Virus record (IMG/VR): IMGVR_UViG_3300020191_001890
Location: 1-26,446 of that record
Strand: one strand, 5' to 3'
Length of the DNA: 26,446 nt
DNA from: a virus
Shown: positions 2,040 through 26,446 of the stretch, piece after piece
Layout: every line of letters starts with the position of its first letter
Numbering within the stretch: the stretch's first letter is position 1
The notes under the pieces: generated by a model
Databases searched by the model: none
The model's input: only the letters and a program-made list of their open reading frames with translations
Told to the model about the DNA's origin: nothing
Program-made: the position numbers and the translations under genes

Positions 2040-2069
2040 ATTTTATTCACTATTAAACTTTTAATAATT

Positions 2070-2824: not shown

Positions 2825-2828
2825 AAAA

Positions 2829-4261: not shown

Positions 4262-5073
4262 AAATTTTTAAACTCGTTTCTTAACATTTCGATTACACTT
4301 CTATCTTTAACAAAAATAGAGTCTGGTTCTTCACCATTTAAAAAAATATTTTTAACACATACGTTTTTTGATAAACTTCTTTTTCTGATAACCTGTGTAA
4401 ATTCATTATTAATATGAAAAACACAATTATTATAATCAAAATCTATACAATATCCTTGTTGATATATTCTATAACTTAATTCATGGTCTTCAGCTGATTT
4501 CCAGTTTTTTAAATCTAAGTTTTTATTTTTTACTCCTCCATAATACTTTAAGGTTTCATCAAATTTAAATTTTTTAAAAAAATCTCGCTTAGTAACAAAA
4601 AATGTAGAACAAAAATATAATCTTTTATCATATTTATCGTGTTCATAATCAACCATTGTATGTATAGTATCGTTAATAATTGACCTATCCCAATACCTGC
4701 CACCATTTGGTAATAAAATTTTATTAGTTAAAAAATTCCAATCATTATTATTATTGTATTCTAAAAACTTATTTAACCAATTTTTTGGCATCAAAACATC
4801 ATCATCACAATAAACCACTATTTCAGTATTACATTTTTCGATTATTTTATTTCTTAATTTACCCACAAATCCATTATTAGCTTCCTCTTTAAAATTATGC
4901 AAAAAAATGTTCTCGTCTTTTAAAAATGAAAATTTTGAAATATTTCCTCCTATATGGATATCGCATTTATAATTTGTTACATTTTGAATAGATTTGATTG
5001 TTTTTTTTGTTAAATCGTATCGCTTACCATTAGTAGCTATTGCAAAGGAAATGTTATTATATATATCTTTCAT
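4258..5073 (-). CDS. Family 2 glycosyltransferase (GT-A)
   Basis: This 271-residue protein starts with a GT2-like strand (ISFAIATNGKRYDLTKKTI, 8-26). VVYCDDDVLMPKNWL at 86-100 carries the DxD-type metal-binding site, and WKSAEDHELSYRIYQQGY at 191-208 supplies the ED motif of the catalytic base region. The order and spacing fit inverting GT2 enzymes, slightly compact. The ATG is preceded by AAGAGAA, an acceptable Shine-Dalgarno. The stop overlaps the methyltransferase start. It probably adds a sugar to a glycan on virion protein or host surface; the specific linkage is not predictable. Confidence 0.82.
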   Translation of the reverse strand: MKDIYNNISFAIATNGKRYDLTKKTIKSIQNVTNYKCDIHIGGNISKFSFLKDENIFLHNFKEEANNGFVGKLRNKIIEKCNTEIVVYCDDDVLMPKNWLNKFLEYNNNNDWNFLTNKILLPNGGRYWDRSIINDTIHTMVDYEHDKYDKRLYFCSTFFVTKRDFFKKFKFDETLKYYGGVKNKNLDLKNWKSAEDHELSYRIYQQGYCIDFDYNNCVFHINNEFTQVIRKRSLSKNVCVKNIFLNGEEPDSIFVKDRSVIEMLRNEFKNL

Positions 5074-5090
5074 TTCTCTTAATTTTTCCT

Positions 5091-6635: not shown

Positions 6636-6673
6636 TTAGTCAACAATTGAAAAGTTAGTCAACAATTGAAAAG
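6636..6673. repeat. Perfect 19-bp tandem duplication
   Basis: The 19 bases at 6636-6654 (ttagtcaacaattgaaaag) are repeated exactly at 6655-6673. On the minus strand the duplicated unit encodes the last residues of the propeller gene and its TAA stop, so a second copy of the same coding end, including stop, follows the gene. This looks like a recent slippage or recombination scar at the border between the propeller genes and the glycosyltransferase genes. Confidence 0.9.
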
Positions 6674-7836
6674 ATGTCTTTTATATTTGGTGTTTCATAG
6701 ATATAGACATATCCAGCACCGTTACCACCACCATTTCCACTACGTGATATTAATATTTTACCGTCTCCTATGAAAACTTTATTACCAAAATTAGTACCAT
6801 TTGTTGATGTGGGTGTTATCTTTTTTAATTCGTTACCGTCAAGGTCAAAGATGTAAGCTGATTCATCATCTGACCCCACCACTATTCTACCAGAGCCTAC
6901 AGCAACTGATCGGCCAAATCTATCATAAGCAACACCATCGGAGGCCGTGATCTTGGACAATTGGGTACCATCTAGGTCAAAAATGTAAGCTGAGCCTGAA
7001 TCAGTACCATTGTCGTCATCATAAAGAGCCCCTACCACTATACGGCCATTACCTACAGCAACTGATTGGCCAAATTCATCACTAGAAGCACCATCTGAAG
7101 CTGTTATCTTGGCCAATTGGGTGCCATCTAGGTCAAAGATGTAGGCTGAGCCTGAAGAACCACCATTGTCGTCATCTCTCTCAGCCCCTACCACTATTCT
7201 ACCGTTACCTATAGCAACTGATCGGCCAAAGTAATCATTAGCAGCACCATCTGAAGGTGTGATTTTGGCTAATTGGGTTCCATCAAGGTCAAAGATGTAG
7301 GCTGAGCCTGAATCAGTACTATTGTCGTCATCTCTATAAGCCCCCACCACTATTCTACCAGAGCCTACAGCAACTGACCAGCCAAATTGATCATCAGCAG
7401 CACCATCTGAAGCGGTGATCTTGGCCAATTGGGTACCATCAAGGTTAAAGATGTAAGCTGCGCCTGATACAGCACCAATGTCGTTATTTCCATATACAGC
7501 CCCCACCACTATTCTTCCAGAGCCTACAGCAACTGATTTGCCAAATCTATCATTAGCAGCACCATCTGAAGCGGTGATCTTGGCTAATTGAGTGCCATCT
7601 AGGTCAAAGATGTAGGCTGAGCCTGATTCATCACCATTGTCGTCATCTCCTTCAGCCCCAACCACTATTCTACTGTTACCTATAGCAACTGAAGAGCCAA
7701 AGCTATCATTATATGCAGCATCTGAGGATTGTATTACAGTTTCATTTGAAGGGGTTGTCGTTAAATCTAAAGCACCTTCTGTTGAAAATAGGCCTGTTTT
7801 ATTGTCGTATTGTGAATATGTTGTTTTAAATGCCAT
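6655..7836 (-). CDS. FG-GAP seven-bladed beta-propeller protein, paralogue 1
   Basis: After a 45-residue unique N-terminus, this 393-residue protein contains seven consecutive repeats of about 52 residues on the pattern FGxSVAVGxGRIVVGA, then DDDNGxxSGSAYIFDLDGTQ, then LAKITASDGAxxDx. Seven repeats is the number of blades in integrin-alpha-type FG-GAP propellers, and DDDNG resembles their calcium-binding loop. Blade 6 lacks that loop and blade 7 is diverged, as expected at the closing blade. Variation concentrates at the same few loop positions in every blade. No signal peptide is seen. Its place behind the fibre genes suggests a virion-surface adhesin. The ATG has an AGGAT Shine-Dalgarno, and the gene begins four bases after paralogue 2 ends. 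Confidence 0.85.
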   Translation of the reverse strand: MAFKTTYSQYDNKTGLFSTEGALDLTTTPSNETVIQSSDAAYNDSFGSSVAIGNSRIVVGAEGDDDNGDESGSAYIFDLDGTQLAKITASDGAANDRFGKSVAVGSGRIVVGAVYGNNDIGAVSGAAYIFNLDGTQLAKITASDGAADDQFGWSVAVGSGRIVVGAYRDDDNSTDSGSAYIFDLDGTQLAKITPSDGAANDYFGRSVAIGNGRIVVGAERDDDNGGSSGSAYIFDLDGTQLAKITASDGASSDEFGQSVAVGNGRIVVGALYDDDNGTDSGSAYIFDLDGTQLSKITASDGVAYDRFGRSVAVGSGRIVVGSDDESAYIFDLDGNELKKITPTSTNGTNFGNKVFIGDGKILISRSGNGGGNGAGYVYIYETPNIKDIFSIVD

Positions 7837-10180
7837 AGTTTTATCCTGTTAATCTTGTGTATTGGCCAATTCTATTATCAGCAATTTTTTCTACATAATC
7901 GTCGTAGTATTCGTTGGTGTTGTAGATGTAGGCTGATCCTGAAGAAGAAGCATTGTCGTCATCTAAATAAGCCCCTACCACTATTCTACCGTTACCCACA
8001 GCAACTGATATGCCAAAGTTATCAAGAGCAGCACCATCTGAAGCAGTGATCTTGGCCAATTGGTTTCCGTCTAAATCAAAAATATAGGCCGAGCCTGTTC
8101 CATAACCATTGTCGGCATCTCTATTAGCCCCCACCACTATTCTACCGTTACCTATAGCAACTGAAGAGCCAAATTTATCTTCAGCAGCAGCATCTGAACG
8201 TGTGATCTTGGCCAATTGGGTACCATCTAGGTCAAAGATGTAGGCTGCGCCTGTATCGCTACCATTGTCGTCATCTCCATAAGCCCCTACCACTATTCTA
8301 CCACAACCCACAGCAACTGCTGAATCGCTAAAATAATCACCAGAAGCTCCATCTGAAGCCGTGATCTTGGCCAGTTGATTTCCATCTAGGTCAAAGATAT
8401 AGGCTGAACCTGAAGCACTACCATTGTCGTCATCTTGGTAAGCCCCTACCACTATTCTACCTGAACCTACAGCAACTGATTGGCCAAAGGAATCAAAAGC
8501 AGCAGCATCAGAAGCTGTGATCTTGGCCAATTGGGTTCCATCTAGGTCAAAGATGTAGGCTGAGCCTGAATTGGAACCATTGTCGTCATCTGAAGAAGCC
8601 CCTACCACTATTCTACCGTTACCTATAGCAACTGAAGAGCCAAAGGTATCATCAGCAGCACCATCGGAAGCTGTAATCTTGGTTTCATTGGTTCCATCTA
8701 GGTCGTAGATGTAGGCTGAGCCTGAACCAGAACCATTGTCGGCATCTCCCCTAGCCCCTACCACTATTCTACCGTTACCTACAGCAACTGATCGGCCAAA
8801 ACGATCATCAGCAGCACCATCGGAAGCTGTTATCTTGGCTAATTGGGTGCCATCAAGGTCAAAGATGTAGGCTGAGCCTGAAGCAGATCCATTGTCGTCA
8901 TCTAAATAAGCCCCTACCACTATTCTACCTGAACCTACAGCAACTGAATAGCCAAATTCATCAGCAGAAGCACCATCTGAAGGTGTGATCTTGTTTTCTG
9001 TGCTTGCAACTGTAGCGGCCTCACTATAAGCAAATGAACTATTGCTTATCTCACCTTTATCTCCAAAGACTAAATTTTGATTTGTTTTTGATCCTGAATA
9101 AAATGCCATGTGTTAAACCTCGTTGTATATTAAATCGTATGGTGTATAAACTCTTGGTGTTTCGTAGATGTAGGCTGAGCCTTGATTTTCGTTAGCACCT
9201 ACGTCATCTTGGTAAGCCCCTACCACTATTCTACCGTTACCTATAGCGACTGCTGATTTGCTAAATAGATCAGCAACATCACCATCAGAAGCCGTGATCT
9301 TGGCCAATTGATTTCCATCTAGGTCAAAGACATAAGCTGAGCCTGAAGCAGAAGCATTGTCGTCATCTGCCCAAGCCCCTACCACTATTCTACCGTTACC
9401 TACAGCAACTGCTTCCCCAAATCTATCACCATCAGCACCATCGGAAGCCGTGATTTTGGCTAATTGAGTTCCATTTATGTCAAAGATGTAGGCAGCGCCT
9501 GAATTGGAACCATTGTCGTCATCATCATCAGCCCCTACCACTATTCTACCGTTACCTACAGCAACTGAATTGCCAAAAAAATTATTAGTTGGACCATCGG
9601 AAGCCGTGATCTTGGCCAATTGGGTACCATCTAGGTCAAAGATATAGGCGGTGCTATCTCCAGAAGCTCCCACCACTATTCTACCTGAACCTACAGCAAC
9701 TGATCGGCCAAATAACTTACCACCAGCAGCATCGGAAGGCATGATCTTGGCTAATTGAGTACCATCTAGGTCAAAGATGTAGGCTGAGCCTGTATAAGAA
9801 CCATTGTCGCTATTTTGTTCAGCACCTACCACTATTCTACCGCACCCTACAGCAACTGACCCGCCAAATCTATCTTGTGTATCCCCATCGGAAGCCGTGA
9901 TCTTGGCTAATTGAGTACCATCTAGGTCAAAGATGTAGGCCGAGCCTGATTGAGAACCATTGTCGTCATCTCCATAAGCCCCTACCACTATTCGACCAGA
10001 GCCTATAGCAACTGACTCGCCAAAGAAATCATTAAGAACCCCATCGGAAGCCGTGATCTTGGTCAATTGGTTTCCATCAAGGTCAAAGATGTAGGCTGAG
10101 CCTGAAGCAGAACCATTGTCGTCATCTTGGTAAGCCCCTACCACTATTCTACCGCACCCTACAGCAACTGACCCGCCAAA
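6700..10180. repeat. Array of 21 FG-GAP blade repeats (about 153-159 bp each) in three genes
   Basis: Three adjacent genes together hold 3 x 7 = 21 coding repeats. Their scaffold is nearly identical at DNA level: stretches such as cccctaccactattctacc recur in most units. The arrays are at roughly 6700-7701, 7900-8956 and 9170-10180, separated only by each gene's unique terminal segments. Such long near-identical repeats should recombine readily and may also be hard to assemble from short reads. Confidence 0.9.
7841..9109 (-). CDS. FG-GAP seven-bladed beta-propeller protein, paralogue 2
   Basis: This 422-residue protein has a 51-residue unique N-terminus starting MAFYSGSKTNQN, then seven FG-GAP repeats from residue 52 to about 405, and a short unique tail ending QYTRLTG. 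Most blades carry the DDDNGSxSG loop (DADNG in blades 2 and 6), which is likely to bind calcium. Blade 5 is a variant type, FSDSAVAVGCG, with one extra residue and Ser for the second Gly; the same variant occurs in blade 7 of paralogue 3. The N-terminus is unlike those of the other two copies except for the initial MAF, so each copy may attach at a different site. A GAGGT Shine-Dalgarno precedes the ATG. Confidence 0.85.
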   Translation of the reverse strand: MAFYSGSKTNQNLVFGDKGEISNSSFAYSEAATVASTENKITPSDGASADEFGYSVAVGSGRIVVGAYLDDDNGSASGSAYIFDLDGTQLAKITASDGAADDRFGRSVAVGNGRIVVGARGDADNGSGSGSAYIYDLDGTNETKITASDGAADDTFGSSVAIGNGRIVVGASSDDDNGSNSGSAYIFDLDGTQLAKITASDAAAFDSFGQSVAVGSGRIVVGAYQDDDNGSASGSAYIFDLDGNQLAKITASDGASGDYFSDSAVAVGCGRIVVGAYGDDDNGSDTGAAYIFDLDGTQLAKITRSDAAAEDKFGSSVAIGNGRIVVGANRDADNGYGTGSAYIFDLDGNQLAKITASDGAALDNFGISVAVGNGRIVVGAYLDDDNASSSGSAYIYNTNEYYDDYVEKIADNRIGQYTRLTG

Positions 10181-10321
10181 GGAATCATCAGCAGCCCCAT
10201 CTGAAGCCGTGATCTTGGTTTCGTTTGAAGGGAGTGTTGTAACATCACCTGAACCCCATAGATAAGGTTCACCGTACTTTGTTGTATGGTTTTTGTTGTA
10301 AGTTGATATTTTAAAGGCCAT
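9113..10321 (-). CDS. FG-GAP seven-bladed beta-propeller protein, paralogue 3
   Basis: This 402-residue protein has a 47-residue N-terminus beginning MAFKISTYNKNHTTKYG, followed by seven blades. The segment TTLPSNET just before blade 1 is shared with paralogue 1 (TTTPSNET). Blade 4 lacks the DDDNG loop and is seven residues shorter; blade 7 is the FSKSAVAIG variant. The chain ends SAYIYETPRVYTPYDLIYNE plus a final Val, and paralogue 1 also has YETP at its closing strand. A strong GGAGGT Shine-Dalgarno lies about ten bases before the ATG, so this first gene of the trio should be well translated, with the next two spaced by only a few bases. Role: probably receptor or surface binding. Confidence 0.85.
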   Translation of the reverse strand: MAFKISTYNKNHTTKYGEPYLWGSGDVTTLPSNETKITASDGAADDSFGGSVAVGCGRIVVGAYQDDDNGSASGSAYIFDLDGNQLTKITASDGVLNDFFGESVAIGSGRIVVGAYGDDDNGSQSGSAYIFDLDGTQLAKITASDGDTQDRFGGSVAVGCGRIVVGAEQNSDNGSYTGSAYIFDLDGTQLAKIMPSDAAGGKLFGRSVAVGSGRIVVGASGDSTAYIFDLDGTQLAKITASDGPTNNFFGNSVAVGNGRIVVGADDDDDNGSNSGAAYIFDINGTQLAKITASDGADGDRFGEAVAVGNGRIVVGAWADDDNASASGSAYVFDLDGNQLAKITASDGDVADLFSKSAVAIGNGRIVVGAYQDDVGANENQGSAYIYETPRVYTPYDLIYNEV

Positions 10322-17291: not shown

Positions 17292-17636
17292 TTAAATAGT
17301 TACATTTGGACTGACAGTTATAATTCCTTGTATTACTCGAATTACAGAATTATCAGATGCTTTCAATAACTCAACATCATAAACGTATCTAGCAGGTGCT
17401 TCTAAATTACTTGTTTCAGTTGGAGATAAAGATAATGTGATTATACCTGTGGTAGGATCACCATTAATTGAGGTATTTATTGTTGTTCTTGTTCTGGTCG
17501 AGGCATAACCTAATGCCATTTTAGCAGAAGCACTATATCCTGTTAAGTCAAATGCACTTCCATCTGTATCTTTTACAGTTACATCTGAAGTAAATGTAGC
17601 TCCTTGTTCAATGTATAGGTTAGCCGTCGCAGCCAT
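17292..17636 (-). CDS. Beta-sandwich baseplate/tail structural protein
   Basis: This 114-residue protein begins MAATANLYIEQGATFTSDVT, continues VKDTDGSAFDLTGYSASAKM, and ends VIRVIQGIITVSPNVTI. This layout (an IEQGATF start, a middle YSASAKMA, a YDVEL strand and an IxGxxTVSPxVT end) is typical of small Ig-like phage structural proteins, including the N-terminal domain of BppU-type baseplate proteins. A GAGGA Shine-Dalgarno is present upstream. It probably sits in the baseplate or fibre base; the exact location is unknown. Confidence 0.7.
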   Translation of the reverse strand: MAATANLYIEQGATFTSDVTVKDTDGSAFDLTGYSASAKMALGYASTRTRTTINTSINGDPTTGIITLSLSPTETSNLEAPARYVYDVELLKASDNSVIRVIQGIITVSPNVTI

Positions 17637-17906: not shown

Positions 17907-17914
17907 TATTTATA
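17907..17914 (-). promoter_or_regulatory. T4-type late promoter TATAAATA
   Basis: An exact minus-strand TATAAATA lies just after the stop of the TauD-like gene (17920) and 44 bases before the ATG at 17863. It marks the border between the enzyme operon and the fibre genes and would start the fibre transcript. Confidence 0.72.
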
Positions 17915-17919
17915 ATACA

Positions 17920-18792
17920 TTATTTAAGTTTGTCAAAAATTACAGGTTGATAATTTTCTATTGATTTTGAGTAATCAAATGCCGTTCTCCATAGTTGTCT
18001 ATCTTTATTTTTAACAGCTGATCTTCTATGACTTGTAATTAGTTGATCCATAAACAATAAATCACCCTTTCTAAACACATGGTGTATCATGTATTTTGAT
18101 CTTGTTACATCATTCCATAATTTATTATAAAATGTATCAAAATCTTCTATTTCTTTACCATCTCTATACCATGCTTTATATAGATAGATAAACATAGGAT
18201 ACAAATATTCTTTGCCGTTTACAGGATGTTTTGCAACTAAAGGTCGTCTATCTATTTCTTCTTTATAATGTTTTTGTCCTGTTCTAAAGTTTTGTTCACC
18301 AACATTTTTGTATGCTTTAGAATAGACACCATCATCTCTCCATATTCGTGCTCGATCACCTTCATTATTAAGATTTATATCTATACTTCTATAATAATTT
18401 TTATCTTCTTCAGATAAATTTTCAAAAGCATATTGTTGATTTACAATTGAAAGAACAGTATCTATACATTCTTCAACACAATATAATCCTACACAAATTT
18501 CTTTAAAGTTATATCTTCCAGTACCATTTGCATGCCATTCTAGTTCTGTTGGACCAAACATACCAATTGGTTTGCCATTAATAACAGCACCTGACACAAT
18601 ACTTATTTGTGGTGAGTCTTTTGGATTCATAAAGTAGTCCAATTCTTCTACCTCACCTATTCTTGCACAAACTTGAGCAAGTTGCTGTCTTGTTAAATCT
18701 TGTTCATGTAAAACAACAGAGCCTTCATTAACAATTTTATAAACTAATTCTGTTAACTCTTTATCTGTATAATTTATTATTTGTTTACTCAT
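17920..18792 (-). CDS. TauD/TfdA-like Fe(II)/2OG dioxygenase with HxN metal motif
   Basis: I chose the ATG at 18792 (MSKQIINYTDKELTELV) over an upstream ATG at 18819, because it overlaps the preceding stop as ATGA, like most genes in this operon; the product is 290 residues. The protein follows the TauD plan: ELEWHANGTG with His87 and Asn89 where the family has HxD, then MDQLITSHRRSAV with the distal His255 and RQLWR with the 2OG-binding Arg269, fourteen residues after that His. TauD enzymes hydroxylate small carboxylic or sulfonic acids. The Asn in place of the metal-binding Asp is shared with the paralogue at 21429-22244. Substrate unknown. Confidence 0.8.
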   Translation of the reverse strand: MSKQIINYTDKELTELVYKIVNEGSVVLHEQDLTRQQLAQVCARIGEVEELDYFMNPKDSPQISIVSGAVINGKPIGMFGPTELEWHANGTGRYNFKEICVGLYCVEECIDTVLSIVNQQYAFENLSEEDKNYYRSIDINLNNEGDRARIWRDDGVYSKAYKNVGEQNFRTGQKHYKEEIDRRPLVAKHPVNGKEYLYPMFIYLYKAWYRDGKEIEDFDTFYNKLWNDVTRSKYMIHHVFRKGDLLFMDQLITSHRRSAVKNKDRQLWRTAFDYSKSIENYQPVIFDKLK

Positions 18793-19673
18793 AAATTTTC
18801 TAACAATGGTGTTATACAAATTCTTGCTGTATCATTCCATTTCATTCTACGTCTTTCAGCATAATACTCATCTCTAGTGGTTGCTAAATAAAAACAATCA
18901 GACGGTTTAAAGCTATATTCATTACAAATTTGTACTTGTTTTTCTCTATACTTATTCCACATTTCATCAACTTTAAAATTACTTATTATTAATTCTATAG
19001 TTTTAACGCCATTATAATTCCAATTCTCAAATCTTTTTAATCTATCAAGTGTAGAATGTGGTTCTTTTGTATATACTAATCCAAGTCGTTGACCTATAAG
19101 ACCAAATCCTTTAGAAAAACTAAAAAAAACTTGTTCAGTATTTTTTGGTAGATTTATTCTTTGAATATTTGTTGAACCTACATAAGTACAATCTAAAATT
19201 ACAGGTGCTTCAATTTTACCTGGATCAAAATAATTTCCATCAGCAGCTGAGGGTATTGATATATACAGAGGTTTATTATTATCTATTTTGCCTTTCAATG
19301 CTGCTCTTCCAGTTTCCTCATTCATATATTGACCCGGCACATCACAAGTTACAATACTAGGTCTACTTATAATGTCAGCATATTCATATTCACCGTAACA
19401 AAGTTTTTGCCACTCTCTTTTTTCTGTCATTACCCAATGATGAATAGCATCTGTTGTACCATTTGTAAAATAACAATAATTGAAATCTGATAAATCTATT
19501 ATTTCACTTACCCATTTTCTATGTAATTCTTCTACCTTATTTAAATCATTTGTTGCATGACCACTACCTCTTTTATAATAAGTATCTGAAATTAGTTGTT
19601 GACTTATTATATCTTTTACTTCTTTAAATGTTGGTACGTCTACCCAACGATTATCTTTTAATTTTTCCTTCAT
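18789..19673 (-). CDS. Compact PLP-dependent aminotransferase-like enzyme (fold type I)
   Basis: This 294-residue protein has the key elements of fold type I PLP enzymes. FTNGTTDAIHHWV (69-81) is the cofactor phosphate-binding turn, VILDCTYVGS (158-167) contains Asp161 for the pyridine nitrogen, and FFSFSKGFGLIGQRLGLVYT (183-202) contains Lys188 as the likely Schiff-base lysine and Arg196. It is about 100 residues shorter than usual class I/II aminotransferases, mainly in the C-terminal small domain. A transamination, decarboxylation or elimination on an amino acid is plausible. Start and stop both overlap neighbouring oxygenase genes as ATGA, so it probably acts in the same pathway. Confidence 0.8.
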   Translation of the reverse strand: MKEKLKDNRWVDVPTFKEVKDIISQQLISDTYYKRGSGHATNDLNKVEELHRKWVSEIIDLSDFNYCYFTNGTTDAIHHWVMTEKREWQKLCYGEYEYADIISRPSIVTCDVPGQYMNEETGRAALKGKIDNNKPLYISIPSAADGNYFDPGKIEAPVILDCTYVGSTNIQRINLPKNTEQVFFSFSKGFGLIGQRLGLVYTKEPHSTLDRLKRFENWNYNGVKTIELIISNFKVDEMWNKYREKQVQICNEYSFKPSDCFYLATTRDEYYAERRRMKWNDTARICITPLLENL

Positions 19674-20290
19674 ATATTCAGTAAGTCGTCTGTACCGTCT
19701 AAAGTAAACATTAAAGCTATTCTAGGTTTTTTACTCATATTTACAACAGCATGTTTATAACCTATATTTAAAAAATATGCTTGTCCATCTTCAAGGTTAT
19801 ACGCTTCAATCTTATCATTTCTTTTAAATAAATTAATTACATTATTGTCACCATATATAGGCACTATACATCTAACACCATAACTTACATCATAATCAAC
19901 ATGCCAAGGTATCATTTTACCAGGCGCTAATTTTGTTATTCTTATTCTACTTGCAGGTGCTTTACATTGAGATACAATATTTTCAAAATAACTACCTTTA
20001 TAAATTTCAGTTGGCATATTATATAAATGTTCTTCTTTTCTTTTTAATCTTTCTTTTATACTTGTTGTATGAGATAAAATTTCACTAGGTGTTGTTAAAT
20101 TTATTTGTTCAAAATTATCATATACACTTTTTACCAAATCTTCATGGTTCATACATAACATTGGATTGGCAGACCTAACGTCAACAAACGTATCTGCTAT
20201 TAAATCAGTTGACTTTCTTAACTGTGCTAAATTAATATTTAAATTTAAATTAGCTATTGTTGGTAGATTGTGTTTCGATAATTTCTCCAT
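19670..20290 (-). CDS. Aspartyl/asparaginyl beta-hydroxylase-like 2OG oxygenase
   Basis: This 206-residue protein carries RIRITKLAPGKMIPWHVDYD (115-134), with His130 and Asp132 of the HxD motif, then YGVRCIVPIYGDNNVINLF. LEDGQAYFLNIGYKHAVVN holds the distal His180 and KPRIALMF the Arg190 that would bind 2OG. The pattern fits the Asp/Asn beta-hydroxylase cupin family, which hydroxylates amino-acid side chains in proteins or as free substrates. The ATG at 20290 has an AAAGAG Shine-Dalgarno and overlaps the preceding gene by 41 bases; its stop overlaps the PLP enzyme start. Confidence 0.8.
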   Translation of the reverse strand: MEKLSKHNLPTIANLNLNINLAQLRKSTDLIADTFVDVRSANPMLCMNHEDLVKSVYDNFEQINLTTPSEILSHTTSIKERLKRKEEHLYNMPTEIYKGSYFENIVSQCKAPASRIRITKLAPGKMIPWHVDYDVSYGVRCIVPIYGDNNVINLFKRNDKIEAYNLEDGQAYFLNIGYKHAVVNMSKKPRIALMFTLDGTDDLLNI

Positions 20291-20855
20291 TGTGTTCTCT
20301 TTCTATTATAAAATTAGATTTAGGTTGCCAGTTGTAGTCACCTTGTAATCTAATACTATAAACATACTGTAACATTGTACCTGTTTTAAACAAAAACTTT
20401 GTTTCTAATTTTAAATTTTTGTACCACTCTCCATTTATAAATTTTTTAAATGCAGTATCAGTCATCTTTCTTTTTCTTTGATATAGATTATTTATTGCTC
20501 TATTTTTAATGTCATGTGTAATGTAAAGTATCTTAAATCCTTTTTCTCTTGCCCACTTTATCTGGTGTTCAGCCATAATTAATCCACAATGAGTATGTCT
20601 ATATTCTTTTAAGATATGATAACGACAAACTCGCACTGCTACAGTTGGATCGTTTGTATAGTGTGAACTTTCAGCAGCTGATATTGATATTAACTTATCA
20701 TCTTTAAAACACATCCACGTTTCTATATTAGGATTATCAGGATTATATTTTTTATAAGTTATACTATTATTGCCTTCATTAAAAGTTTGTAATCTAAATC
20801 TCTCAATTAAAGGCCAATACTTATTAGGATTTTCTGAATATCTTTTTACTATCAT
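20250..20855 (-). CDS. GNAT-like N-acyltransferase
   Basis: I chose the ATG at 20855 (MIVKRYSENPNKYW), which overlaps the preceding stop as ATGA, giving 201 residues; an upstream start at 20882 would lie inside the previous gene. ETWMCFKDDKLISISAAESS (45-64) looks like GNAT strands 2-3, and CRYHILKEYRHTHCGLIMAE (77-96) followed by HQIKWAREKGFKILYITHD looks like strand 4, the pyrophosphate loop and helix 3, with RHTHCG replacing the usual QxxGxG/A. NRAINNLYQRKRKM fits the C-terminal helix. It probably acylates an amine. A Fem-like or other acyltransferase is possible because the loop is atypical. Confidence 0.62.
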   Translation of the reverse strand: MIVKRYSENPNKYWPLIERFRLQTFNEGNNSITYKKYNPDNPNIETWMCFKDDKLISISAAESSHYTNDPTVAVRVCRYHILKEYRHTHCGLIMAEHQIKWAREKGFKILYITHDIKNRAINNLYQRKRKMTDTAFKKFINGEWYKNLKLETKFLFKTGTMLQYVYSIRLQGDYNWQPKSNFIIEREHNGEIIETQSTNNS

Positions 20856-21460
20856 ACATGAGCAATAAGTCTTCGACCACAAAATATTTCTGCCTCAACA
20901 ATATATTGTTCTTTAAATTTATATTGTTGCATATTGTTTGTAATTGTTTTTAACTTTAATTTTTCTTCATAGTATTTTTGTGTGTGATACGGTTCTTGTA
21001 TTACAGCATTTTTACATTGATAGTAATTCATTATATCAGTAAACATTTTATAATGATTTTCTTCATATAACAAAACACCACTAAAAATAATACAATCTAC
21101 TTTGTAATCTACTGATTTTAGATTTGCCCAATCTCTTACTTCGTACTCAATGTTGTTTTCATTAATCCATCTTTTTTGAGCAAACTCTATAGGCTCTGGC
21201 GATGTATCAAAACCGTAGTAACGATAATCTTTATAATTTTTTTCACGTAAAAAATCATTGATAGGTCCATGTCTGCAACCAATATCAACAATACCTTTAT
21301 AATTATTTTTTATAATTATTTCTGCTTGTTTTTCAAATATAGGTTTTGCTTCTAAAGTATCTAAGTATGACATATCTCTTAAACTATACTGTCTTTTCAT
21401 AGGTATTTCACCAGTTTTAGTTGTGATATTAGGCCAAGGTATAGATTTGTTTAAAGTCAC
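20852..21460 (-). CDS. Class I SAM-dependent methyltransferase (GTG start)
   Basis: The best start is the GTG at 21460: GGAGGA (21467-21472) lies at ideal distance before it, while a TTG at 21466 would sit directly on that sequence. The product is 202 residues. GIVDIGCRHGPINDFLRE, starting near residue 56, is SAM-binding motif I, YRYYGFDTSPEPIEFAQ contains motif II, and CIIFSGVLLYEENHYKMF corresponds to motif IV and its following helix. The family methylates O, N or C in small molecules or RNA; the substrate is not visible. It overlaps the TauD-like gene upstream by 32 bases and the GNAT-like gene by four, so it belongs to the coupled operon. Confidence 0.8.
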   Translation of the reverse strand: MTLNKSIPWPNITTKTGEIPMKRQYSLRDMSYLDTLEAKPIFEKQAEIIIKNNYKGIVDIGCRHGPINDFLREKNYKDYRYYGFDTSPEPIEFAQKRWINENNIEYEVRDWANLKSVDYKVDCIIFSGVLLYEENHYKMFTDIMNYYQCKNAVIQEPYHTQKYYEEKLKLKTITNNMQQYKFKEQYIVEAEIFCGRRLIAHV

Positions 21461-22244
21461 TTGCAATCCTCCATAATAGTCTATTGTTATCCATCACAGG
21501 TGTTCTACGGTGTAAACTTGTAAATTGATCCATTAATAACAAGTCACCCTCTTTAAAAATGTGATGATATTGATATTGTGATTTAAATATTTTAGGTTTT
21601 AATTTATTAATCATTTCTTCAGCGTCTATTTGTTTTTTACCTTCCCACGCTTTTGTTATAAAATGATACGGAAAATAAAAATATTCTAAGCCTGTATGGG
21701 GATGTTTATCAACTAGTTTACGAATACTTCCTTTGTTTTTACTCATAAATTCTAATTCGGGATCGTCATCCTCTAAATTGTATATTGTATTGTTTTTAAA
21801 TTTTAATCTTATTGTAATTGATCTCCAATAATTCTTTTCATCATCTGACATATCATAAAATGGTTGTTGAGTGTTACAGACACTTAAAGTTGTATTAATA
21901 TCTTCTTTTACACAATACAAGGCAATTAAAATTTTGTCTATCAAATGCCTAGAATTTCCATTTGAATGCCAACCTAATTCTGTATCTCCAAACATACCTA
22001 TTTTTTTACCATCAACTTTTTTACCTGTAACTAAAAAGATTTCTGGATAATCTTTTGGATTCATAAACAAGTTAGGAGCCTCACACTCACCAAATCTTTT
22101 CATTGTATCAATATATTCTTTTTCATTTAATTGTTGATTATAGAATACAGCTACACCTTGTTGATGTACATTTTTTGCAACATCAAGTAATTCTTCATTA
22201 ATCATATCTTTTATTTGTTTATCTATTTTTTTAGGGTATATCAT
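21429..22244 (-). CDS. TauD/TfdA-like Fe(II)/2OG dioxygenase, second copy with HxN motif
   Basis: This 271-residue protein is a paralogue of the enzyme at 17920-18792, sharing FMNPKDxPxIxxVxGxxxxG, then KxIGMFGxTEL, and the C-terminal block. Its metal motif is LGWHSNGNSRH, with His93 and Asn95 (codon AAT) where Asp is normal. The distal His245 lies in QFTSLHRRTPV and Arg259 in RLLWRIASDF, again fourteen residues apart. The pair may act in sequence on related substrates, or form a heteromer. The start overlaps the upstream oxygenase gene as ATGA. Confidence 0.8.
   Translation of the reverse strand: MIYPKKIDKQIKDMINEELLDVAKNVHQQGVAVFYNQQLNEKEYIDTMKRFGECEAPNLFMNPKDYPEIFLVTGKKVDGKKIGMFGDTELGWHSNGNSRHLIDKILIALYCVKEDINTTLSVCNTQQPFYDMSDDEKNYWRSITIRLKFKNNTIYNLEDDDPELEFMSKNKGSIRKLVDKHPHTGLEYFYFPYHFITKAWEGKKQIDAEEMINKLKPKIFKSQYQYHHIFKEGDLLLMDQFTSLHRRTPVMDNNRLLWRIASDFKQIYTLA
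21467..21472 (-). promoter_or_regulatory. Shine-Dalgarno GGAGGA deciding the methyltransferase start
   Basis: GGAGGA on the minus strand, inside the end of the TauD-like gene, lies six bases before the GTG at 21460. It supports that GTG as the start rather than the adjacent TTG. Confidence 0.7.
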
Positions 22245-22900
22245 AATATATTTTCTACCATTTCTTTAAAATCTTTATAGTCTAATATCTTAGGTATGTT
22301 ATTCCATCTTGTTACCCAAGCACATCTAGGTGCTTCTGTAATAACTACTCTATGCATAATATCAGTTCTAATTAACACTGGTCTATTTTCTAAAACTATT
22401 TCACCTATTTTTCTATCACTTAAAAACTTTTCAAACTCGGGTGTGTATTGACCCATTTCTTTTTGTGCTTTAAACTCATGGTAGTATGCATGACCATGTG
22501 CGTTTTTTTCAGGCAAATAAACTTCTTCATCTTTTGTTTCAAAATAATCAATACGAGATTTACCAAACACAGGTATAACAATGTTATAACCATTAGGGTG
22601 TTCAGTATCTAAATCTATATCTGTATGAGCAAATACATCTTTTTCTGTACTATCAGCTGTATTGAAACCTGTTGAACGAAATTGATAATGTGGATGTACT
22701 TTTCTATGTTTAGATAATATAGGATTAAATACTTGTTCATATCCCGTAGGTTTACCTGTTTTATTATCTTCAAGTGAATAACTTACAAATGGTGTTTTAC
22801 CAAATGTATTGTTAACATTACTTTTAACTTTATTGTACAAAGACAAAAGTAATTCTGTATCAGTTGCTACGTTTATGTATTCAGCTACACCTTGTATCAT
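22241..22900 (-). CDS. Fe(II)/2OG oxygenase, divergent type
   Basis: This 219-residue protein shows VFAHTDIDLD (89-98) with His92 and Asp94, followed by NGYNIVIPVFGKSRIDYFET on the double-stranded beta helix. VLIRTDIMHRVVITEAPRCA (175-194) holds the likely distal His183 and Arg192. The whole resembles Asp/Asn hydroxylase-like and phytanoyl-type oxygenases but matches neither closely. A His/Tyr-rich insertion between the strands (HGHAYYHEF, near 135-143) is notable. Start and stop overlap the neighbouring peroxiredoxin and TauD-like genes as ATGA. The substrate is unknown. Confidence 0.7.
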   Translation of the reverse strand: MIQGVAEYINVATDTELLLSLYNKVKSNVNNTFGKTPFVSYSLEDNKTGKPTGYEQVFNPILSKHRKVHPHYQFRSTGFNTADSTEKDVFAHTDIDLDTEHPNGYNIVIPVFGKSRIDYFETKDEEVYLPEKNAHGHAYYHEFKAQKEMGQYTPEFEKFLSDRKIGEIVLENRPVLIRTDIMHRVVITEAPRCAWVTRWNNIPKILDYKDFKEMVENIL

Positions 22901-23328
22901 AGTTTATATAAAACACCATCTATAAATGGGTCCTCAAATTCTTTTGTTATACTTCCATTTTCAACTAACAAAGCATATCGTTCACTTCTTACACCAAAAC
23001 TGTCTCCCCAATCAACATCTTTTTTAAGATGTTTTGTAAACACTGCCAATGGATCAGATACACTATCTATTTCAGAATGACCATGTTGTTTATTCCAAAC
23101 ATCCATGACATATGCGTCATTAACACTTACAAATATTACTTTATCTACACCAAATAATTTTAACTTATCTAATTTTTCTGCAAACCCTGGAAGATGTTTA
23201 TTTGTACAAGTGTTTGTAAATGCACCAGGAATACCACATAATATAATTTTTAATTTATCGTCTACTTCATAGGGTACAATTTTTTTATCTTTTAAAATGT
23301 AAAGACCTTTACTACTTATTTTTTCCAT
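22897..23328 (-). CDS. Peroxiredoxin (Prx5-like)
   Basis: This 143-residue protein contains CGIPGAFTNTCTNKHLPGF (31-49), the PxxxTxxC signature with Thr38 and the peroxidatic Cys41. IFVSVNDAYVMDVWNKQHG (65-83) is the typical second strand region of Prx5-type enzymes, and GVRSERYALLVENG near 112-125 supplies the conserved Arg. Prx5 enzymes reduce hydrogen peroxide and organic peroxides with thiol donors. The usual length is about 155-160, so it is slightly short. Its start overlaps the flavoprotein gene by 13 bases. It may protect the iron-dependent oxygenases downstream, or take part in an oxidative step. Confidence 0.85.
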   Translation of the reverse strand: MEKISSKGLYILKDKKIVPYEVDDKLKIILCGIPGAFTNTCTNKHLPGFAEKLDKLKLFGVDKVIFVSVNDAYVMDVWNKQHGHSEIDSVSDPLAVFTKHLKKDVDWGDSFGVRSERYALLVENGSITKEFEDPFIDGVLYKL

Positions 23329-23897
23329 TTACTATCCCATTCATTATATTTTTTCTGCCAATCACTTACTTGATCTAGCATGTTTTTGTTAATTATTTCT
23401 TTACTCTCACTTTCGACAAACTTGTAATTATCTGGTACTAACTTTTCCCAACAATCATGTTTTACAAACATTTTTTTTACGTTACCACCTAACTTTTCTA
23501 ACAACTCTTTTGTCATATCAAAATGTCTATCGCCAGCACCTTTTTTAACAGGTGTAAATGATATAACATATATTTCTTTATTTGATATTGAATACTGTTG
23601 ACCTAAATCTGCATTATAATATGCCTTTACAACTAACCAGTCCATAAGATTTTTAAAACCTACACAATAATGACCAGTGTATTCAGGTATAGAAAAAACT
23701 AATTTATCACTTTTACTTAATATATTGTCTATAGCTTCTACCTCTTTAGGAATAATACCGTCTGGTCTATTTGAATTGCAAATAGGTAAATCCAATTTAA
23801 TGATGTTTGAAAATTTGATGTAGTGGTCCATTAATAATAGACCTCTATAACTCATAGAGCTTTCACTATAACTAAAAGATACTGCTGTCGTATTCAT
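23316..23897 (-). CDS. NADPH-dependent FMN reductase-like flavoprotein
   Basis: This 193-residue protein has FSIPEYTGHYCVGFKNLMDW at 68-87, matching the PEYxxxxxGxxKNxxDWL signature of NADPH-dependent FMN reductases (flavodoxin fold, SsuE/azoreductase-like). The N-terminal phosphate loop SFSYSESSMSYRG is altered from the usual GSxRxxS, so flavin binding may be weaker. The family supplies reduced flavin or reduces quinones and dyes. It is the first gene of the overlapping enzyme operon and lies after a 25-base gap with no clear Shine-Dalgarno. It could reduce flavin or a partner needed by the peroxiredoxin or the oxygenases. Confidence 0.72.
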   Translation of the reverse strand: MNTTAVSFSYSESSMSYRGLLLMDHYIKFSNIIKLDLPICNSNRPDGIIPKEVEAIDNILSKSDKLVFSIPEYTGHYCVGFKNLMDWLVVKAYYNADLGQQYSISNKEIYVISFTPVKKGAGDRHFDMTKELLEKLGGNVKKMFVKHDCWEKLVPDNYKFVESESKEIINKNMLDQVSDWQKKYNEWDSKWKK

Positions 23898-23922: not shown

Positions 23923-24552
23923 TTACTTAAATAACTTCTCTGCTAACCAACCACCTGTATCGTATTTGTGTAATCGTATTCTTTTAAAATTGTCATGGTG
24001 ATTTCTATGATATCCTTCACCTGCAATAAAAAAGTTTAACCATGGTACATTTGCACCACCTGGAGTTCTATGACCTACTGTATTTAATAAACCAAATCCT
24101 ATTTTAGCAAATACAAATGGTACAACACAAAATGATATCCAAAAGTACGGACTAATTAAAAAACTAATTATATTTACTGAAATTAAAATATGTAACCAGT
24201 ATTTGTGGCAAAAAACTAGTCTAGGATTTTTATACAAATCTCTAGCATATTTACTTGGTATATTTTTTATATCCCATGTTGTAAATAATACTTTCCAAAA
24301 ACCTACATACTTAGATGCATGAGGGTCTTCTGGACCATCTGAATGTTTGTGATGAATACGATGGCTTGCAATCCAACCAATGGGTGTTCTTATACATGCA
24401 ATCATCAGCATTGAAAGACCTAACACTTCAAACCATACAGGAACTTTAAACTGATTGTGACAATAATGTCTATGTAATAAAATACTAGCACCTAAGTGTG
24501 AAATTATTTCGGACCAAATGACACCTATAAAAATAGCAAATAACCAATCCAT
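23923..24552 (-). CDS. Delta-9-type fatty acid desaturase (membrane di-iron)
   Basis: This 209-residue protein contains the three histidine boxes of membrane acyl desaturases: LLHRHYCHNQF (25-35), ASHRIHHKHSDGPEDPHAS (62-80) and AGEGYHRNHHDNF (177-189), plus His161 in NTVGHRTPGG. Hydrophobic segments at about 3-26, 42-60 and 120-160 would anchor it in the membrane. It is shorter than bacterial Delta-9 desaturases (about 270-300), mainly between boxes 2 and 3 and at the ends. It would insert a double bond into host membrane acyl chains, perhaps adjusting fluidity during infection, or act on a lipid-like product of the neighbouring operon. Confidence 0.88.
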   Translation of the reverse strand: MDWLFAIFIGVIWSEIISHLGASILLHRHYCHNQFKVPVWFEVLGLSMLMIACIRTPIGWIASHRIHHKHSDGPEDPHASKYVGFWKVLFTTWDIKNIPSKYARDLYKNPRLVFCHKYWLHILISVNIISFLISPYFWISFCVVPFVFAKIGFGLLNTVGHRTPGGANVPWLNFFIAGEGYHRNHHDNFKRIRLHKYDTGGWLAEKLFK

Positions 24553-24558
24553 TATATT

Positions 24559-24846
24559 CTATTGACCCTCTAAACTATAAGATACTGAATTTTCAGAACA
24601 AAAGTTTTCTAAATTTTGACCGTTTTGTGTATTAACTGGTTCATTTATAAATTCCTGATAGGCAGCTTGATCTACAAAGACTGTTGTCCAAGTTTCTACT
24701 AAACCATCAACAGTTTTAACAGGTTTTTGTGTTATTTTACCTTGGTCAAAATAACTATCAATCAAAGCTAATATGTCATTGTTCCAAAAGTTAATTTCAA
24801 CACCTTCGTTTGGTTTTTGATAAACGTTTCTAAATGTATAACTCAT
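24559..24846 (-). CDS. Small hypothetical protein
   Basis: This 95-residue protein begins MSYTFRNVYQKPNEGVEINF and includes TWTTVFVDQAAYQEFINEPV (53-72). That stretch, with alternating strands and helices, suggests a small alpha/beta fold like a dimeric barrel, but I do not recognise a family. The ATG lies only five bases after an exact TATAAATA and has no Shine-Dalgarno, so a transcript from that element would be leaderless. It lies between the desaturase gene and a 2OG oxygenase gene. Confidence 0.6.
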   Translation of the reverse strand: MSYTFRNVYQKPNEGVEINFWNNDILALIDSYFDQGKITQKPVKTVDGLVETWTTVFVDQAAYQEFINEPVNTQNGQNLENFCSENSVSYSLEGQ

Positions 24847-24851
24847 AATAC

Positions 24852-24859
24852 TATTTATA
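24852..24859 (-). promoter_or_regulatory. Possible late promoter TATAAATA adjacent to a start codon
   Basis: An exact minus-strand octamer overlaps the TAA stop of the upstream gene (24855) and ends five bases before the ATG at 24846. If used, transcription would begin at about the start codon. The placement is unusual, so this may instead be chance in AT-rich sequence. Confidence 0.4.
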
Positions 24860-25304
24860 TAACCCCTACTATATGTATTCTATCCAGCATGGAGGCGTTT
24901 AATGCTGTGTGATTTTTTGTTGTATCAACTACATGATAATTACCATCTGCAGGATAATGAAAAATTTGTTTATCTATAATTATAAAACAACTTTCATTTG
25001 TTTCAATAGGTATGTGTATTCTTTTTGATAAATCTTTATGATAAGTATAACATGTTTTAGGTTTTAAATTCATTACTCTGGTACGATACATTTTTAAATC
25101 TGATAAAATACTGTTAATATAAGGCAGATCAAAAATAAATGTGCTAAAATCTGTTTCTTTATATCCCATTTCATATTTTTCATTCCATTTACCCACACCC
25201 CAAAATGGATCTAAATTATCTTTGGTACCTTGAAGACAAATTTGTTCATCAAACTTAGGTAATAGCTTTAGTTCACTTTTTATTTTTTCTATATCTAAGG
25301 ACAT
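24855..25304 (-). CDS. Small Asp/Asn beta-hydroxylase-like 2OG oxygenase
   Basis: This 149-residue protein has MYRTRVMNLKPKTCYTYHKD (72-91), with His89 and Asp91 of the HxD motif, followed by SKRIHIPIETNESCFIIID. GNYHVVDTTKNHTALNAS (121-138) holds the distal His132, and Arg142 lies in DRIHIVG. The layout matches the cupin core of Asp/Asn beta-hydroxylases with little extra sequence. The start overlaps the SDR-like gene by ten bases. It is the fifth 2OG oxygenase of this region and lies outside the strictly overlapping block. Confidence 0.72.
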   Translation of the reverse strand: MSLDIEKIKSELKLLPKFDEQICLQGTKDNLDPFWGVGKWNEKYEMGYKETDFSTFIFDLPYINSILSDLKMYRTRVMNLKPKTCYTYHKDLSKRIHIPIETNESCFIIIDKQIFHYPADGNYHVVDTTKNHTALNASMLDRIHIVGVI

Positions 25305-25729
25305 ACAGTTATCTCTTTGACTCTATGTGGTTGATTTAACACCCAATCTATAATTGAAATACAATAATCAATAGACATTTTTTTACTGTCTATATTAGCA
25401 CTTCTTGGTGAGTCAAAATAACCAAAGTTAATTATACAAGTGTCAACACCTTCATAATAAAGTTGTTCATTTACATCTCTTAGTGTTTTCTTTTCAATAC
25501 CATATCTATACATTTCTTTGTGACCTTTTATCCAATCACTTCCTGCAGACCCTATATTGATTATTTTTTTATGAAGTTTTGCAGCCTTATAAAGCAATTC
25601 TACTTGTTGAAAACCATCATGCTTACAATTAATGAATATATCACAATTATTTAAGTCATCAACTGTATCATATTTTTCATTTAATACTTTACCAAGGCCT
25701 CTACGAGTACCAGTAATATAGAATTTCAT
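25295..25729 (-). CDS. Short SDR-like NAD(P)-binding protein
   Basis: I chose the ATG at 25729 (MKFYITGTRRGLGKVLNEKY), because anything further upstream runs through the promoter of the divergent gene. The 144-residue product has the SDR cofactor loop TGTRRGLG at 6-13, IINIGSAGSD at 56-65 for the catalytic Ser, and YRYGIEKKTL with a YxxxK pair (Tyr76/Lys80). Typical SDRs are about 250 residues; here strands and helices between the cofactor loop and the active site are trimmed. It could be a minimal reductase or a degenerate relative. No Shine-Dalgarno is seen; TCTAAATA lies five bases before the ATG. Confidence 0.62.
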   Translation of the reverse strand: MKFYITGTRRGLGKVLNEKYDTVDDLNNCDIFINCKHDGFQQVELLYKAAKLHKKIINIGSAGSDWIKGHKEMYRYGIEKKTLRDVNEQLYYEGVDTCIINFGYFDSPRSANIDSKKMSIDYCISIIDWVLNQPHRVKEITVCP

Positions 25730-25751
25730 ATACTTATTTAGACGATAAATA

Positions 25752-25780
25752 TTGACAAATTTATCAAAATGTGTTATAAT
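25752..25780 (+). promoter_or_regulatory. Consensus sigma70 promoter (TTGACA - 17 bp - TATAAT)
   Basis: TTGACA at 25752-25757 and TATAAT at 25775-25780 are both exact consensus hexamers with an optimal 17-base spacer. The plus-strand gene's ATG at 25787 follows only six bases later. In T4-like phages such host-type promoters drive early genes, so this marks a change from late (minus) to early (plus) transcription. Confidence 0.85.
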
Positions 25781-25786: not shown

Positions 25787-26446
25787 ATGAAAATTGTAAA
25801 TATAGTGTGTACAAGTAAGCCTGGTGATGGTCTCTTTCATTATAGTTATGAACACTGTTGCTATCTTAACTCAATTGGCATTAAAAGTCAACTAGTAATT
25901 TTGACACATCACAAATTTAGTCAACAAGACTATATTAATGCTATTAATGAATGTTATATAAAATACGAAAATGTGGTATTTAACTTTTATACACCTTCAT
26001 CAAACGATATAACATTAATACTAGGAAGAAGTATGTTGACACTAGCATACTTGAACAAAAGCTCATACACAAATGATCAATTACTTACTTTACATTTGTT
26101 GTTTAGTGGTAACCTCATATCTGTATATTCAGAAAATCATCCTAAAGAATATTCAAACGCCGTAGATTATTTTAAACCAAAAAAGATATACGACTTATGC
26201 GATTATGATGTTTATCCTAATGGCATAGGAGAACAATTTGAAAAAATAATAAACTTTAGTATTTACAAACCAGTTAAATCAGATATACAATTTAAGTATC
26301 TGTTTTTAGGTACAAATGAAATATACTATAGAGAAATAGAAAAACACATAGACAAATATCCAAATCACGGTATTGTAACTTACAATGAAAAGTGGATTAA
26401 TCCTAAGTTAAATAATCTATTCGTACCTATTAAAAATATATTAGGA
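25787..26446 (+). CDS. Hypothetical protein, partial (GT-B-like N-terminus possible)
   Basis: An open frame runs from the ATG at 25787 to the window end, 220 codons without a stop. It begins MKIVNIVCTSKPGDGLFHYS, then YEHCCYLNSIGIKSQLVILT, which resembles the first strand, glycine loop and helix of a GT-B glycosyltransferase. Further on are TLILGRSMLTLAYLNKSSYT and KSDIQFKYLFLGTNEIYY, the second suggesting the start of a second Rossmann-like domain. I recall similar genes in marine T4-like phages annotated only as hypothetical. There is no Shine-Dalgarno; the expected start site of the sigma70 promoter falls at the ATG. Confidence 0.7.
   Translation, partial: MKIVNIVCTSKPGDGLFHYSYEHCCYLNSIGIKSQLVILTHHKFSQQDYINAINECYIKYENVVFNFYTPSSNDITLILGRSMLTLAYLNKSSYTNDQLLTLHLLFSGNLISVYSENHPKEYSNAVDYFKPKKIYDLCDYDVYPNGIGEQFEKIINFSIYKPVKSDIQFKYLFLGTNEIYYREIEKHIDKYPNHGIVTYNEKWINPKLNNLFVPIKNILG

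Follow-up and report, generated by a model that had tools for sequence, protein, structure and literature searches.

The window analyzed here is the whole of IMG/VR record IMGVR_UViG_3300020191_001890, a 26,446-base virus record to whose full length all positions refer. On its minus strand lies a run of nine overlapping enzyme genes (23897 to 17920), and DES (23923-24552), 25 bases upstream of that run, is a member of the same unit. On balance, we favor the reading that this cassette is a modular, virus-borne, O2-dependent tailoring cluster whose product would be derived from an amino acid and would likely be a surface-glycan decoration; we infer both the product and its destination. The constant part of the cluster is a three-gene core of DES, PLP, and AAH. 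In minus-strand order, the unit reads as follows.

DES, 23923..24552, minus strand: short membrane fatty-acid-desaturase-type di-iron protein (PF00487); core gene
FMN, 23316..23897, minus strand: NAD(P)H:FMN/quinone-reductase-like flavoprotein (PF03358); tailoring
PRX, 22897..23328, minus strand: peroxiredoxin (PF08534, phrog_2281); tailoring
OGX, 22241..22900, minus strand: orphan 2-oxoglutarate (2OG)-oxygenase-like protein, from predicted structure and residues
TAU1, 21429..22244, minus strand: TauD/TfdA-like protein with HxN replacing HxD (PF02668)
MT, 20852..21460, minus strand: S-adenosylmethionine (SAM) methyltransferase (PF13649); GTG start, true start uncertain
GNAT, 20250..20855, minus strand: acyltransferase-like (PF00583)
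AAH, 19670..20290, minus strand: aspartyl/asparaginyl-hydroxylase-family 2OG oxygenase (PF05118); core gene
PLP, 18789..19673, minus strand: compact fold-type-I pyridoxal phosphate (PLP) enzyme, from predicted structure (PF00155 below cut-off); core gene
TAU2, 17920..18792, minus strand: second HxN TauD-like protein (PF02668)

We examined linkage in viral contigs scanned with AAH (174 confirmed stretches, 80 analyzed as loci), GNAT (92 confirmed, 80 analyzed), PLP (22 loci), and OGX (20 loci). Clustering at 95% identity reduced the AAH-anchored set of 150 loci, with several on some contigs, to 61 groups. Of their representatives, the 33 with at least 5 kb on each side were counted, genes being searched within 9 kb, and the 28 with less than 5 kb on one side (15 with DES, 18 with a PLP type, 22 with TAU1) were omitted. 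DES, a PLP-type gene (PLP or AT79), and AAH occur together in 33 of the 33 AAH loci, with lowest-scoring matches of 88 bits for DES, 115 for PLP, and 145 for AAH. The accessory genes are TAU1 (27 loci), MT (26), GNAT (20), FMN (17), AAH2 (16), TAU2 (15), OGX (14), PRX (13), and AAH81 (12), and MT is accompanied by TAU1 every time. PLP and TAU2 form an adjacent pair in 18 contigs, at the end of the cassette in the window and after DES elsewhere; phages of the type of Pelagibacter phage Mosig have AT79 in place of PLP and lack TAU2. The pair also occurs without AAH and DES in four records, together with PRX and OGX in L010, L011, and L014 (L numbers denote loci) and alone in L023, and two of these records are 121 and 124 kb long. 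SDR, a gene upstream of the cassette, adjoins AAH2 in 8 contigs. TAU1-MT, PLP-TAU2, FMN-PRX-OGX, and GNAT are modules added to or moved around the DES-PLP-AAH core.

Gene order was compared in 32 contigs (31 from IMG/VR plus Mosig), unnamed genes not being counted. The order FMN-PRX-OGX-TAU1-MT-GNAT-AAH is kept in 22 of them and the full nine-gene order in 6, every one a close copy of the window (95 to 100% protein identity). An earlier note on this DNA had treated the nine genes as a unit, which the comparison does not bear out. The genes do occur independently in part, since PLP-TAU2 is found apart and many loci lack one or another of FMN, PRX, OGX, TAU2, and GNAT; in the 33 AAH loci, DES, PLP, and AAH never separate. 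Such mobility, in a region known to be hypervariable (passages of PMC7029224), is what would be expected if accessory genes acquired one by one had accumulated here by chance; we consider this very unlikely given the unbroken linkage of the core, its recurrence in bacteria, the presence of MT in 26 of 27 TAU1 loci, and the conservation of the overlaps.

Two further observations concern the content of these loci. Nineteen of the 33 loci have, within 9 kb, an unassigned open reading frame (ORF) of at least 180 amino acids with a CxxxCxxC motif, against 0 of 33 with reversed sequences. Two proteins without a Pfam match, 2OG-like by eye, stand between OGX and TAU1 in L018 (6503-7532); similar pairs, also by eye, precede PLP in L010 and L023 and follow OGX in L021, and on this by-eye assignment they are a further movable module.

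In the window, the ORF list and a start-codon check show overlap at all eight junctions of the nine-gene run. Five are 4-base ATGA junctions (PRX/OGX, OGX/TAU1, MT/GNAT, AAH/PLP, and PLP/TAU2); the others overlap by 13 bases (FMN/PRX), 32 bases (TAU1/MT, provided that MT begins at GTG 21460), and 41 bases (GNAT/AAH). These junctions agree with the earlier note, as does the presence of gaps (56, 8, 81, and 12 bases) between the adjoining fiber-region genes. Relatives keep the same overlaps (4 bases at PRX-OGX in 24 of 27 contigs and at OGX-TAU1 in 22 of 23), so they are not due to chance, and the nine-gene set is probably co-transcribed. Expression at equal stoichiometry, also proposed in the note, is not readable from overlaps.

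Curated Pfam cut-offs are exceeded by FMN (PF03358, 36.4 bits against a cut-off of 24, with YieF-like PDB matches), PRX (PF08534, Redoxin, 69.9 bits, plus a match to phrog_2281), TAU1 and TAU2 (77.6 and 70.6 bits against 27 for PF02668; the two are 41% identical), MT (PF13649, 36.3 bits), GNAT (PF00583, Acetyltransf_1, 24.5 bits against 20.7), and AAH (PF05118, Asp_Arg_Hydrox, 29.1 bits against 22.6); DES scores 44.5 bits against 29.7 for PF00487. PLP falls below the cut-off of PF00155 (class I/II aminotransferases; 15.9 versus 19.7 bits), which its homolog in a bacterial genome, G075, exceeds (20.2 bits), and its predicted structure (pLDDT 79.4) is that of a fold-type-I PLP enzyme (Z up to 19.2 over 272 residues). 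The nine top-ranked structures for this model are the O2- and PLP-dependent arginine oxidases/hydroxylases MppP, RohP, and Plu4 (Z 18.5 to 19.2). These are only 6 to 9% identical to the window's PLP, which is shorter, and with the ranks tied the likeness is a lead only. OGX matches nothing in Pfam (E up to 1) or in PHROGs or NCBIfam (E up to 0.1); its predicted structure (pLDDT 92.5) has the double-stranded beta-helix fold typical of 2OG oxygenases (against 7v4m, VIA Z 11.4, 140 residues aligned, root mean square deviation 3.2), and by modeled fold and an HxD...H motif it is a 2OG-oxygenase-like protein. Searches of solved structures with PLP, OGX, AAH, and GNAT alignments gave nothing useful. 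The four oxygenases recognized in the earlier note are all there, but they are of three types (TauD-like, PF05118, and OGX) rather than two.

The membership of DES in the fatty-acid-desaturase family (PF00487) brings lipid remodeling into consideration, the substrates of DES, AAH, and GNAT then being acyl chains or a headgroup like that of ornithine lipids. Ornithine-lipid modification, a pathway of OlsB-, OlsC-, and OlsG-type enzymes, does use PF05118 hydroxylases, GNAT-like acyltransferases, and N-methyltransferases. We nevertheless think lipid remodeling unlikely: the GNAT match is to the generic Acetyltransf_1, a short DES may take other substrates, and the named families include no acyl-carrier or other lipid gene.

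The cassette enzymes are intact and under purifying selection. Conserved residues include Cys41 and Thr38 of PRX (21 of 21), the HxD...H...R of AAH (21 of 21), the HTD...H of OGX (invariant in 23 of 23), the three His boxes of DES (15 of 15, save one residue in L022), and the distal His and 2OG-binding Arg of TAU1 (20 of 20) and TAU2 (14 of 15, the remaining row being truncated). The Schiff-base Lys188 of PLP is conserved in 16 of 17 sequences; the homolog in L023 (9992-10855) has Arg there, with one Tyr and one Arg also changed, and judged by these residues is probably not an ordinary PLP enzyme. Across the eleven families tested, the median ratio of nonsynonymous to synonymous substitution (dN/dS) runs from 0.13 (TAU1, GNAT, AAH) to 0.30 (PRX) by a simple Nei-Gojobori count over pairs with dS of 0.1 to 1.2; individual pairs reach 0.6. 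Apart from a conserved Asn for the iron-binding Asp in both TauD-like proteins, none of the broken active sites that would speak against a pathway were seen. The phage-borne pathway of the earlier note thus survives as a set of intact, probably co-transcribed genes under purifying selection in many marine viral contigs, without its nine-gene unit.

Both TauD-like proteins carry WHSN or WHAN at the family's HxD position. In a profile alignment, this Asn falls on the HAD motif of ScoE (6dch), whose Asp we take to be an iron ligand. Asn occupies the position in 65 of 65 distinct TAU1 sequences and 31 of 34 of the TAU2 class, the three exceptions being Asp, and in the bacterial cassette copies as well. 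Among 19 control TauD homologs from the same phylum as those copies and not orthologous to cassette genes, the motif is HxD in 16, HxE in 3, and HxN in none (five rows that were partial, oversized, or duplicate were excluded, and three more were left out of the tree). In the TauD tree, the phage TAU1 clade contains the copy from bacterial genome G001 and TAU2 is its sister, with long branches elsewhere. TAU1 and TAU2 share with TauD/TfdA dioxygenases (TauD, ScoE) the profile match, the distal His, and the 2OG-binding Arg but differ in having Asn for the iron-binding Asp. In Fe/2OG halogenases, that Asp is replaced by Gly or Ala, whereas TAU1 and TAU2 have Asn at the position. Conservation under strong selection argues that HxN is not decay. 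Human AspH, according to PMC10947486, is an active 2OG oxygenase that holds iron on two His without a carboxylate, and HxN therefore need not abolish activity.

The TauD proteins of the Prochlorococcus phages P-HM1 (L080, 1096-2166) and MED4-213 (L081, 2713-3561) share HxN and have unrelated gene neighbors; their label, taurine catabolism dioxygenase, may be misleading. Cyanophages also supply another explanation for many 2OG-type enzymes in one virus, a published proposal (passages of PMC3037559) that such oxygenases alter the host 2-oxoglutarate level and hence nitrogen signaling. For this cassette, we rate that as hardly probable at all: the proposal, in those passages, is built on the cyanobacterial regulator NtcA, and it leaves DES, PLP, MT, GNAT, and their linkage unexplained.

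We searched 50,697 phage records with PLP, TAU1, OGX, GNAT, AAH, FMN, and MT. Pelagibacter phage Mosig was the sole matching record for six of these seven; the seventh, TAU1, also matched Mosig and had weak matches in six Prochlorococcus phage records. In Mosig EXVC030M (MT647606), the cassette is Mosig_00072-00081, with a divergent operon alongside; its DES, FMN, PRX, OGX, TAU1, MT, GNAT, and AAH are 62 to 86% identical to those of the window, whereas AT79 (34% identical) stands where the window has PLP, and TAU2 is absent. The Mosig genes are annotated one by one, and the genome announcement, in the passages of PMC7892664, is silent on the cassette. No cassette was found in HTVC008M, isolated on Mosig's host: its homologous fiber-assembly gene is preceded by virion genes with no cassette between, and VrlC lies four genes before.

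Beyond phages, a scan with the TauD alignment (one genome per species) returned a Bacteriovoracaceae metagenome-assembled genome (MAG) and a short contig that is labeled Paceibacter but, judging from its genes, is probably a phage. Neither is titled SAR11, and the patterns were too strict to establish that other bacteria lack the genes; on these two loci, we set aside the idea of host-derived metabolic genes. A search with AAH of 368 genomes in the phylum of that MAG gave 2 matches (E up to 1e-20), and DES, PLP, and AAH occur together in two Bdellovibrionota genomes (G001, contig C101; G075, contig C34). G001 has AAH-TAU-FMN-OGX-MT consecutively, with DES-PLP about 10 kb off and two DES genes, over about 16 kb in all; the cluster adjoins aroA/aroB/aroC-like genes (named by eye), which argues that it is probably chromosomal. 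G075 has three TauD-like genes, AAH, PLP, GNAT, and two DES genes in one locus. Both loci thus share with the window DES, PLP, AAH, and HxN TauD-like genes, together with FMN, OGX, MT, or GNAT, but have more radical SAM and hydroxylase-like genes and use both strands. A GNAT-SET fusion lies inside the G075 cluster (L050, 10992-11996; PF00856, 38.1 bits). Alongside the G001 cluster stand four tandem genes of about 176 residues, hydroxylase-like by eye (L044, 4162-6280); the two of these searched in Pfam had no match. Radical SAM genes occur at both loci, and a G001 gene is weakly like PP-loop/asparagine synthases (below the Pfam cut-off), with a similar one, by eye, in G075.

A tentative possibility is an undescribed class of virus-encoded natural-product-type cluster, shared with Bdellovibrionota, in which DES-PLP-AAH would build a new scaffold and the HxN branch, with an Asn ligand or an open iron site, would carry out non-standard chemistry such as halogenation, desaturation, or other ligand transfer. 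The bacterial copies also bear on whether the product, instead of decorating a surface, is a free small molecule that would act as an inhibitor, chelator, signal, or protectant. DES, PLP, oxygenases, MT, and GNAT together are typical tailoring chemistry, the two bacterial genomes combine the same core with radical SAM genes and the weakly PP-loop/asparagine-synthase-like gene, and the viral cassette occupies varying genome sites that are not always near fibers. We find a free product doubtful all the same, because the genes searched, if not systematically, include no transporter, ligase, or carrier protein and because pelagimyophage cassettes share a region with glycosyltransferases and have late-promoter motifs. 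The features of the window that bear on this setting are the following.

u246, 24559..24846, minus strand: small accessory protein without a family match
AAH2, 24855..25304, minus strand: second PF05118 hydroxylase (37 bits against a cut-off of 22.6)
SDR, 25295..25729, minus strand: short dehydrogenase-like, named by eye, without a Pfam or PHROGs match
First gene of the divergent operon, 25787..26446, plus strand: truncated by the contig end, without a family match
Downstream neighbor, 17292..17636, minus strand: homolog of the L-shaped tail-fiber-assembly protein (phrog_3304)
TATAAATA, 24852..24859, minus strand: T4-type late promoter motif, 5 nt before u246
TATAAATA, 17907..17914, minus strand: same motif, between the TAU2 stop and the first fiber-region gene
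CTAAATA, 25735..25741, minus strand: late-promoter-like, directly ahead of the ATG at 25729
Sigma-70-like promoter, 25752..25780, plus strand: perfect (TTGACA, 17, TG before TATAAT), 12/12 consensus

The nine-gene run is flanked on its 5′ side by DES, u246, AAH2, the SDR-like gene, and then the divergent gene. Downstream are the fiber-assembly gene, fibers, three FG-GAP proteins, and glycosyltransferase-, epimerase-, and FkbM-like genes; a head-tail connector gene (phrog_211) lies at the window end, and the VrlC side falls outside the contig. In pelagimyophages, the host recognition cluster is bounded by VrlC and a neck gene, and passages of PMC7029224 describe in it tail-fiber genes by the neck gene, radical SAM cassettes, glycosyltransferases, and phage-to-phage variation, as here; such genes are placed in that cluster, and a change of the O-chain is proposed. 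The gene content of the window is compatible with a SAR11-myophage host recognition cluster. Those passages contain no DES-PLP-AAH core, TauD-like, MT, or GNAT modules, linkage, or bacterial or other viral copies.

Within this island, a run of genes at 528-6623 beside the fibers (weak sulfotransferase-like, epimerase, GNT-I-like, FkbM, and DXD-sugar glycosyltransferase genes) points to a glycan program. The window's divergent ORF (25787..26446) is 65% identical to Mosig_00083, and the Mosig divergent operon encodes DegT, a carbamoyltransferase, radical SAM proteins (one above and one below the Pfam cut-off), and a GT8-like protein just short of the Pfam cut-off, which suggests a sugar partner and hence surface decoration. 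Mosig_00083 itself (L042, 6866-7732) has the GenBank label molybdenum cofactor biosynthesis enzyme, without Pfam support, and looks glycosyltransferase-like by eye.

The three FG-GAP repeat proteins at 6655-10321 are tandem and rich in Asp and Asn (PF14312, up to 395 bits). Their region has a G+C content of 0.43 to 0.47 in 1-kb steps, against 0.24 to 0.40 elsewhere in the window, and a homolog in cyanophage S-TIM5 is annotated as a virion structural protein. The cassette could also serve post-translational modification of tail fibers or other virion proteins: the operon leads into same-strand fiber genes with late-promoter motifs on its flanks, PF05118 includes peptidyl Asp/Asn hydroxylases, and the Asp/Asn-rich FG-GAP proteins are nearby. 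HTVC008M, however, has the homologous fiber-assembly gene on the same host without a cassette before it, no fiber gene was noticed alongside the bacterial copies, and many viral loci lack a nearby fiber-type gene (counted below), so that we judge this use of the cassette quite unlikely.

Promoter motifs are relevant to when the cassette would be expressed. The T4 late promoter is TATAAATA and its cyanophage form NATAAATA (passages of PMC2984593). In 21 loci, chosen by eye as non-redundant, 62 of 79 TATAAATA copies lie −5 to 90 nt before a same-strand start, against 684 of 4,782 for 55 other orders of the same letters; the runner-up orders, ATAAATAT (33 of 55 near starts) and ATATAAAT (31 of 81), both overlap TATAAATA in sequence. 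All seven copies in the window are on the minus strand and near starts. It is this placement of TATAAATA that exceeds chance; the raw numbers of TATAAATA and of CTAAATA (9 versus 11.3 expected) in the window do not. The window's inter-operon gap has the sigma-70-like promoter toward the divergent gene and CTAAATA toward the cassette. By inspection of the sequences, TATAAATA stands in the corresponding gap of Mosig, L015, L016, L018, L032, and L035, mostly as a palindrome usable in both directions, and is absent from that of L019. Intrinsic terminators in the window number 1, against 3.3 expected.

In the pathway that we propose, DES, PLP, and AAH would provide the founding steps on an amino-acid-derived scaffold and the remaining enzymes would tailor it. 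The PLP enzyme would work on an amino acid as an aminotransferase, a lyase, or an O2-dependent oxidase like MppP/RohP; DES, AAH, TAU1, TAU2, and OGX would oxidize the scaffold, MT would methylate it, and GNAT would acylate it. Reducing power would come from the flavin reductase, and the peroxiredoxin would clear peroxide arising in the O2 chemistry, a role that would follow if the PLP enzyme is MppP-like and produces hydrogen peroxide. A divergent operon like that of Mosig would make or attach a sugar, and the product would be a glycan decoration on the host envelope or the virion, produced late in infection.

Several results weigh against this proposal. Fifteen of the 33 loci have no fiber-type protein within 9 kb (fiber naming was partly by eye), so the link to the surface rests on a subset and the product may instead be a free small molecule. 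TATAAATA stands at the head of the cassette directon in 7 of 33 loci (ahead of any cassette-family gene in 11 of 33), and late expression is therefore argued for pelagimyophage-type loci only. The ranking of the PLP model does not separate the MppP group from aminotransferases and C-S lyases (Z 17.7 to 19.2 for all 50 rows), HxN could mean that TAU1 and TAU2 perform no standard oxygenase chemistry, and a single TAU2 pair has a dN/dS of 1.0. The linkage of 33 in 33 is conditioned on AAH, itself a query, with 80 of 174 AAH and 80 of 92 GNAT stretches used, and no AAH or DES match was found in the whole records of L010, L011, L014, and L023, which may be fragments.

Two other functions were considered and rejected. 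For anti-phage defense, PADLOC gave a single weak methyltransferase match (mad2, 23.5 bits); for DNA hypermodification, the cassette matches include no kinase or nucleotide-modification gene, and no further test was made. As to precedent, the earlier note knew of no described phage system with this gene set, and our literature search, judged mainly from titles and abstract openings, likewise found no description of the linked cassette or of HxN TauD enzymes. That this island carries metabolic genes is, as a general idea, already known; the product and the HxN chemistry have a real chance of being new.

Accounts of phage metabolic genes usually deal with single genes resembling those of the host; here the genes form a linked multi-enzyme pathway. 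It is carried by a cultured phage of SAR11, a very abundant ocean bacterium, and its AAH gene recurs across the 174 confirmed viral-contig stretches. The HxN enzymes are a natural test of what 2OG oxygenases need their iron-binding Asp for, and the virus may make a compound so far undescribed.

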